A stretch of DNA of 64,000 nucleotides from Isoetes taiwanensis (taxonomy: Eukaryota > Streptophyta > Lycopodiopsida > Isoetales > Isoetaceae): assembly GCA_021234155.1 (NCBI GenBank), contig JAJEKV010000052.1:3466254-3530253 (forward strand), given 5' to 3'. Position 1 is the stretch's first letter, and each line of letters opens with the position of its first letter. The notes below the pieces were generated by a model. It saw only the letters and a list, made by a program, of their open reading frames with translations. It made no database searches and had not been told where the DNA came from. Position numbers and translations under genes: made by a program. Positions 20,093-21,373 of this stretch are shown in pieces.

Positions 20093-21373
20093 CTATGGAC
20101 GTTCTCCCCGAATCCTCCGGGCAAGGGCGAGGTCCTTTGGCATTATAGTGACTCGCTTTGCGTGTATCGCGCAAAGATTTGCGTCACTAAAGAGTGCTAT
20201 GAGGTAGGCTTCAGCAGCCTCCTGTAAAGCCAAAATCGCAAAGGTCTGGAAGCGAAGATCGGTTTTGAATTCTTGTGCTATTTCCCGAACCAATCTCTAA
20301 AAGGGTAGCTTCCTTATCAGGAGCTCCGCGGTCTTCTGATACTTACGGATCTCCCGTAAGGCCACGGTACCGGGTCTGAACCGATGGGGCTTCCTTGGAG
20401 GAGCAGGTTTGGGGATTGGTCCCTTCCTCTGTGGTACCGTCTTACCCGCGGTAACAGGGTGGGAGTGGGAAGCATCCACCCGTTCCTGTCTCCTGCTGGC
20501 ACTCGTATTCTTCCCAATGGTGCCGACAATCTTCAACTTCTCTCTATATTGACTGCCGGACTTATGTGCCACGGACTTCCTCCGTCGTTTCCTCGGTGGC
20601 TCATCCGCCTGTTGAGGCCCCTGCTGGTTCTCCTGGCCCGGTTTATCTGGCTGCTGGTGTAAGTCCTGCTGGTTTTTGTCTTGTTGCTCTTTATGTAGCC
20701 TCTCCTGCTGTGCCCCTTCCTGTTCCTCCCGGAATTGACGGGCACGTTCCATATCAGCTTCCACCTGGCTGTACCGCCGAGCCGCGATCCTTCGGATCAA
20801 TTCGGCTTGATAGCGGTCGGGCCGACGAGCCATATCCATCTGGACATGTATCAGGTATTGCAGACTGATATCAGGGATTTCACCCCAAATGAATCCCTGG
20901 GAAGCGTCGTGCCACTCATATGGGGGTAGCTCGAATGCTTCATGGTTAATAATAGCCCACCCATGGCCAAGGTACCTATACTCTTTACTCCGTGTATCTG
21001 TATCTGCCCTCTCTAGTTCCTGACTGTCGTCCCCTTGAGCCAAAGCTCGGATACGGGCCGCCTCAAGCTGAATGGCGCCCTCCTCAGCGTGTTCTTCACA
21101 CTCTGGGGGATAAAACTTGATCAACACCATAACCTGGTCAGGCTGCTCGACCATGGTATATGGCAGCTGATGGAGATTCAGCTTGATCAAAAACTGCTCC
21201 GAAAAGTGGAATATAGGATAAGGGATCCTTAGGTTATCACTAAAACGTTGTGCCAGCTCATTCAGAAGGATGTCTACCACGTCGCTGTCAGTGGCCATGT
21301 ACTTCGCGATCATGGCATAGATTTGGGGTATATTAAGGCTAGAAGGGTCCAAAGTGGTCTTAGTGATGGCCAT
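20093..21373 (-). CDS. HisLTR ORF1: novel N-terminal region plus histone H3 domain
   Basis: A 358-codon ORF starting [12 protein letters not shown], a TAG, then 67 more codons in the same frame. Residues 1-200 are an unrecognised, probably folded domain ([19 protein letters not shown]). Residues ~210-326 are Gln/Glu-rich then basic with PPRKRRRKS, a likely nuclear signal. Residues ~327-426 are histone H3 from the end of the tail through the whole fold: [86 protein letters not shown]. Loop 1 has canonical H3 length, not the longer CENH3 form. The TAG replaces the conserved Gln of LPFQRL, a CAG site, so it may be C-to-T deamination or miscalling. No transposition enzyme is encoded. Confidence 0.85.

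Follow-up and report, generated by a model that had tools for sequence, protein, structure and literature searches.

Virus-encoded histones, such as the H4 of bracoviruses and the histones of giant viruses, are cases in which a selfish replicon carries a histone. Here we describe a long terminal repeat (LTR) retrotransposon of the lycophyte Isoetes taiwanensis that likewise carries one but that, unlike the viral cases, has the core of histone H3 fused to an element-specific domain. The element was analysed in a stretch of 64,000 nucleotides (contig JAJEKV010000052.1 of assembly GCA_021234155.1, positions 3,466,254 to 3,530,253; hereafter the window), where the fusion is encoded by its first open reading frame (ORF1), and it is a member of a lineage of chromoviruses in which a histone, once captured, has been conserved. 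The centromeric histone CENH3 also combines an H3 core with an unusual N-terminal part; however, CENH3 has a divergent core and a longer loop 1, whereas the ORF1 core aligns without a gap to canonical H3 over 98 positions. CENH3 was rejected as an identity on these grounds, in agreement with an earlier reading of the window made from its letters alone (hereafter the sequence-only reading), which had described loop 1 as H3-like rather than CENH3-like.

The VANDAL elements of Arabidopsis are DNA transposons, and their protein VANC is not a histone. VANC resembles the ORF1 product as a chromatin-acting protein encoded by a transposable element (TE; PMC5735166), although for ORF1 such an action is a proposal, and it differs in that ORF1 is a histone fusion in an LTR retrotransposon. 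Among plant LTR retrotransposons, element-specific extra ORFs are shared with Tat/Ogre and Athila, in which they encode plant mobile domain, Transposase_28 or Athila ORF-1 domains; those elements are without a chromodomain, and their extra ORF proteins are highly divergent, whereas the H3 part described here is strictly kept (PMC6317226). Plant chromoviruses are similar to the present lineage in having LTRs, a Met-type primer site, gag, protease, reverse transcriptase (RT), RNase H, integrase parts and a chromodomain, all of which were seen in its complete relative, but the element here has two ORFs more, both located after the 5' LTR and before gag, and the one nearer the LTR ends in a selected H3 core (PMC6317226). 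In the portions of that survey consulted, extra ORFs are reported with other domains, a histone is named once, as a chromodomain ligand, and the partner of type II chromodomains is described as not identified (PMC6317226).

Uptake of host genes by LTR elements is known from maize Bs1 and other captures (PMC7264820, PMC3726574), but the H3 capture here is old, extends across lineages and is under selection. The main texts of a review of additional ORFs (PMC7264820) and of a survey of captures in rice and sorghum (PMC3726574) hold no word starting with 'histone', from which we do not claim absence from print. Among the captured genes of sorghum, chromatin terms were over-represented and went together with retroelement enzyme terms on the same list (PMC3726574).

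Results

ORF1 ends in a near-canonical H3 core

ORF1 of the window copy comprises 427 codons, including one internal TAG and the final stop (coordinates of this and other features are given in Table 1). The sequence-only reading had proposed that one frame, apart from the TAG, joins an N-terminal domain of ~200 residues, a Gln-rich linker and ~100 residues of near-canonical H3, and this arrangement was confirmed. A profile search against histone families, also suggested at that time, matched the H3 core to Pfam Histone with an E of 2.3e-40 (138 bits, cut-off 26.4). The core was identical at 84 of 98 residues to each of the best-matching solved H3.3 and H3.1 chains and at 85 of 98 to a single canonical H3 gene taken from this genome, and it ended at the same point as H3 itself. 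The first open stretch of the frame has 358 codons. When the 3-kb internal region was randomly resampled 1000 times with a first-order model, the longest open run had a median of 126 codons and never exceeded 268, and a chance ORF was therefore rejected.

Besides Histone, neither ORF1 nor the second ORF of the element (ORF2) had a Pfam family over the cut-off, an NCBIfam family or a match in PHROGs (best E 0.33). The profile of the ORF1 N-terminal part gave chance-level matches in the PDB (best E 0.41), and no relatives of the element were found in the viral contigs, prokaryote genome contigs or phages searched. A weak structure model placed a helix at residues 185–238, and a block with a predicted local distance difference test score (pLDDT) of 82–91 was present solely at residues 211–240.

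The H3 part is kept by selection between diverged copies

Searching the assembly of the same genome (1,658,258,908 bases in 1110 contigs) with ORF1 DNA gave at least 42 matches at 100–73% identity, with 40 of 1478 candidates scored. We fetched 38 other copies (97–73% identity; these and further fetched loci carry L numbers), which together with the two copies in the window made up 40 aligned sequences. A total of 38 sequences, including 36 of the 38 fetched copies, covered H3 from its start up to some point in the final ten residues; of the other two, L045 matched no further than the H3 start, and L046 was without the first part of H3. The genome-wide check on other copies that the sequence-only reading had called for thus found the H3 part retained, rather than missing, elsewhere in the genome. 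The internal TAG was present in 3 of the 40 sequences (both window copies and L030), while 29 had a clean sense codon at this place and 8 were unclear or missing.

The ratio of nonsynonymous to synonymous substitution (dN/dS) was estimated for 26 of the 40 sequences (9 window-like and 17 divergent). The 14 sequences dropped were the second copy in the window, the window-like copies L016–L026, eleven in number and rich in errors, and the partial L045 and L046. Across the 153 pairs between the window-like and divergent groups, pairs here and below not being independent, dN/dS was 0.059 for H3 (bootstrap 5–95%, 0.037–0.080), 0.133 for the N-terminal domain (0.108–0.164) and 0.153 for the linker (0.096–0.218), at a dS between groups of 0.9–1.4. 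Within the divergent group (136 pairs), H3 had a dN/dS of 0.056. These results, which answer the selection test suggested with the first description, indicate that, between diverged copies, purifying selection acts strongly on the H3 part, whereas the N-terminal half has been free to diverge further. A neutral simulation was also started from the solved H3 chains; with either of two ancestors, none of 3000 runs produced two three-hit codons. Its outcome varies with the ancestor chosen, and the dN/dS values from the copies take its place.

The canonical N-terminal tail of H3 was not found in ORF1 as a contiguous segment; the alignment starts near H3 position 27 at best, and the element's own linker stands there instead. 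Two short linker motifs are well kept among the 40 aligned rows of the family: K-S-G is exact in 29 of them and G-K in 36. Each could be either a vestige of the tail or a site that arose anew. Because the linker fits the H3 tail in two registers, at KSG or at GK, no conclusion is drawn on the fate of K9 or K27. Such a replaced tail suggests one possible use of ORF1, namely that an H3 bearing it is deposited on element copies and there blocks host silencing marks. The lack of a contiguous canonical tail, with an element-specific linker in its place, favours this, and TE-encoded anti-silencing proteins have a precedent in the VANC of Arabidopsis (PMC5735166). However, if the two motifs are tail remnants the marked lysines may still be there, so that their loss is not established, and the pattern of errors at CHG sites described below suggests that element copies are methylated. 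We consider this explanation rather unlikely.

The complete relative has the make-up of a chromovirus

A complete relative (L010, continued in L047 and read as two stretches) contains a 5' LTR, primer site, ORF1-H3, ORF2, gag, RT, RNase H, H2C2 and SH3 domains, chromodomain, polypurine tract and 3' LTR, with a perfect 5-bp target duplication, GATGA. Its gag matched Ty3_capsid (7.5e-17), its RT reached 1.2e-37 and its H2C2 domain 5.3e-20, and the chromodomain, in the one copy examined, matched PF00385 at an E of 8e-8 (32.5 bits, cut-off 25.1); we take this L047 chromodomain to resemble type II. Protease was clear in L012 (RVP_2, 9.6e-12) and below the cut-off in L010, and the tract preceding the 3' LTR in L047 is purine-rich. 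ORF2, a second conserved ORF of no known family, occupies positions 5866–7266 of L010 (466 amino acids). Among 20 fetched 10-kb loci, the window LTR was matched in 18, the exact primer site was present in 9, and gag homology lay 3' of ORF1 in 17. Because the complete relative has gag, pol domains and a chromodomain, and because gag follows ORF1 in most loci, the lineage is assigned by domain content and order to the Ty3/gypsy chromoviruses. A simple pol-less family was rejected, as longer relatives carry gag-pol. After position 5158 of L047, beyond the 3' LTR, there is a second Ty3-type RT, and L048, downstream of copy L044, has a DUF659 match (4.3e-12); each probably belongs to a neighbouring element.

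The place of ORF1 just upstream of ORF2 and gag, and the strongly basic linker that adds to H3, are what would be expected if ORF1 were a helper of Gag, its basic H3 fold condensing element RNA or cDNA in particles and staying outside host nucleosomes. Yet complete relatives already have gag, and selection acts on almost the whole H3 core, far more than basic charge requires; a packaging role is accordingly improbable in our view.

The fusion extends to a wider lineage and fits one old capture

A search of the same genome with Pfam Histone (150 of 8704 candidates scored) gave 15 matches that started at profile position 2 and were canonical-H3-like, and 135 that started at position 4 or later, most commonly at 20; 36 of these 135 lay in open frames of at least 400 amino acids. 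We fetched three of the late-starting matches, picked for long open frames (L051–L053), and one canonical H3 gene. All three proved to be ORF1 relatives, each a single open frame by direct reading, with N-terminal parts 35–61% identical to the window family and to one another, and the H3 parts of these three and the window family were identical at 82–90 of 98 positions. H3 positions 86, 87, 89, 105, 107, 124 and 135 set the four element H3s apart from the host gene through derived residues that they share; Glu77 is common to the element H3s and the host gene and is Asp in the two solved chains. Compared with the host gene, the element H3s retained 85–88 of 98 residues at a proportion of synonymous differences (pS) of 0.86–0.98, which is saturated. 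This picture, for which four sequences of the element and a single host gene were compared, fits one old capture of H3 from the host lineage, which would then have been kept by selection. The proposal of the sequence-only reading that an LTR element captured a host H3 is supported, the fusion being in frame, present in 38 of 40 sequences and under purifying selection.

That the H3 part is instead a captured host pseudogene, recent or carried along without function, might be suggested by the internal stop in the window copies and L030 and by the decay of many copies. This was ruled out by the low H3 dN/dS between diverged copies, by the same fusion in lineages so far apart in their N-terminal parts and by the saturated synonymous sites, and we regard it as highly improbable. 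Downstream of L052, the stretch L054 contained an ORF2 relative (39% identical) and pieces of gag by tblastn, with no Pfam domains found in it, and downstream of L044, the most divergent copy of the family, ORF2 was present at 67–69%.

DNA encoding IHAKRVTIM occurred at 1,397 exact sites in the genome (728 and 669; control 0), and at 1,229 of them (623 and 606; control 0) it ran on to KDL or KDF, the form of the element H3. This abundance also bears on whether ORF1 is an unusual host H3 variant that merely sits between two LTRs, for which its near-canonical fold might speak. Besides the number of element-type sites, the recurrence of ORF1 at the same place behind the LTR and primer site in many loci, and target duplications that flank the whole unit in both the window and L010/L047, argue against a host gene, which was ruled out and which we find scarcely credible.

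The window copy is a deletion derivative within a tandem block

Table 1. Features of the element in the window (positions are those of the 64,000-nucleotide stretch)
Feature	Position	Strand	Remarks
Target-site duplication	17608..17612		CACGT on the plus strand (ACGTG in element sense); same 5 bases outside both outer LTR ends
Target-site duplication, second end	23603..23607		CACGT on the plus strand
3' LTR without its first ~124 bp	17613..19049	-	92% to 5' LTR; start set against L010 and L047
ORF2, 5' part, frame broken here	19050..19837	-	ORF listing; L010 homology ends at the join
ORF1: N-terminal domain, coiled coil, basic linker, H3 core	20093..21373	-	
ORF1 N-terminal domain, residues 1–184	20822..21373	-	No known family; conserved between lineages
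Coiled coil (185–238) and Gln-rich basic linker (239–327)	20393..20821	-	Helix 185–238 in a weak model
Histone H3 core, residues 328–425 (H3 positions 37–134)	20099..20392	-	Pfam Histone; solved H3 chains
Internal TAG within the H3 part	20297..20299	-	Both window copies and L030
5' LTR, inner edge approximate	22045..23602	-	Adjoining primer site garbled in first window copy
Second window copy of the insertion	33778..39147	-	Tandem 15.56-kb block; left end cut inside 3' LTR
Exact Met-type primer binding site TGGTATCAGAGC, second window copy	37583..37594	-	12 bases
ORF2 fragment, second window copy, 262 codons open	34614..35402	-	L010 ORF2 has 466 codons

The window copy is a gag-pol-less, non-autonomous deletion derivative of a chromovirus. 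A deletion takes the end of ORF2 and runs into the 3' LTR, and no gag-pol was found in the copy, all six frames of the second copy's internal region giving histone only. TR-GAG elements retain gag and have lost pol; this class of non-autonomous element was rejected, as gag was not found in that internal region. The LTR length of 1.43 kb given by the sequence-only reading is corrected to ~1.56 kb for the full LTR, judged from relatives, the 3' LTR in the window being truncated at its start. The tRNA-iMet primer site described in the same reading held for the second window copy, where the Met-type site is exact, and not for the first, where it is garbled. We presume that the primer binding site of the element fits initiator tRNA-Met. 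The exact site had one match in the window, and 22 of 100 shuffles also had one at up to one mismatch.

Because a 15.56-kb block is tandemly repeated (18217–31981 and 33778–47546, 94% identical), the two window copies are not independent insertions; the repeat may have arisen by genuine duplication or by an error of assembly. The block junction lies inside the 3' LTR (33777/33778), and window positions 1–1347 also match the block (29820–31162 and 45376–46731). The differences between blocks occupied 960 columns in 262 clusters, with 27 identical tracts of at least 100 bp between clusters. A CHG-type site was touched by 208 of the 262 clusters vs 85.6 expected, other CG sites by 150 vs 66.8 expected, and CAT/ATG by 49 vs 76.9 expected. 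From this pattern we infer that the block differences reflect base-calling error at methylated cytosines and not decay, which would also be in keeping with a plant-like host, and frame breaks in single copies were treated cautiously in view of it. The two LTRs of the first copy differed in 188 of 1473 columns; since isolated substitutions numbered only 8, with 3 of them away from CG/CHG sites, the window insertion is probably young.

Elsewhere in the window, an ORF at 1613–2137 on the minus strand matches part of the N6/N4 DNA methylase domain in Pfam (7.6e-9), and a 19-bp unit in which GGCATGTT and GGAGCC are frequent forms arrays at 25942–27168 and 41486–42690. A long C/T-rich stretch of low complexity at 47545–51153 gives rise to spurious long ORFs.

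Discussion

Histone H3 acts by pairing with H4 and binding DNA, and the captured H3 probably does something for the element. The reading that we rank first, and to which we give an even chance, is that a chromovirus lineage took up a host H3 long ago and that ORF1 anchors the element on chromatin, a role that we infer from sequence. The captured core makes up the C-terminus of the extra ORF between the 5' LTR and gag. The basic linker would bring the ORF1 protein into the nucleus, where its H3 fold would pair with host H4. Once the protein was part of nucleosomes or H3-H4 complexes, its N-terminal domain and coiled coil would be displayed on chromatin. The displayed part could then anchor ORF2, Gag or the integration complex, and in this way target integration or hold the element on chromatin. 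Because the element-specific N-terminal part is also under selection (dN/dS 0.13), it probably binds something, and its partner is perhaps one of these three. Deposition of an anti-silencing nucleosome ranks second and packaging third.

Several observations weigh against chromatin anchoring by a chromovirus-encoded H3. Read directly, only 3 of the 40 ORF1 sequences were open over their whole length. Among the 36 pairs of window-like copies, dN/dS was 0.39 overall and 0.44 for H3, which we ascribe to decay after insertion together with assembly errors and which counts against present constraint on those copies. In the complete relative, no integrase core model was matched, integrase being recognised by its H2C2 and SH3 domains, and the pol domains were spread over more than one frame. 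No gag was found downstream of ORF1 in L017, L020 and L028 (3 of the 20 loci) within the stretch examined, and neither gag nor RT was found in the 9 kb downstream of L044. Finally, the two structure models were poor, with pLDDT values of 47 and 39.

A more specific proposal, which we advance as doubtful, is that ORF1 H3 and the chromodomain of the element form a private histone-reader pair: ORF1 H3 with its own tail would enter nucleosomes, the chromodomain would read that tail, and the element would thereby mark and find again its own chromatin. If this were true, genes for the histone of a parasite, or their remains, would lie at more than 1000 loci in a genome of 1.66 Gb. The ORF1 H3 is in this respect a candidate ligand for type II chromodomains, the partner of which is stated to be unidentified (PMC6317226).

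The number of element-type H3 sites in one genome is a warning for the annotation of histone genes. ORF1 is a natural H3 with a replaced tail and provides a means of probing the recognition of elements by silencing marks and chromodomains. If the reading of ORF1 as a chromatin anchor is true, the strong selection by which these retrotransposons retain a histone of their host would imply that a nucleosome part can be furnished by selfish DNA itself.
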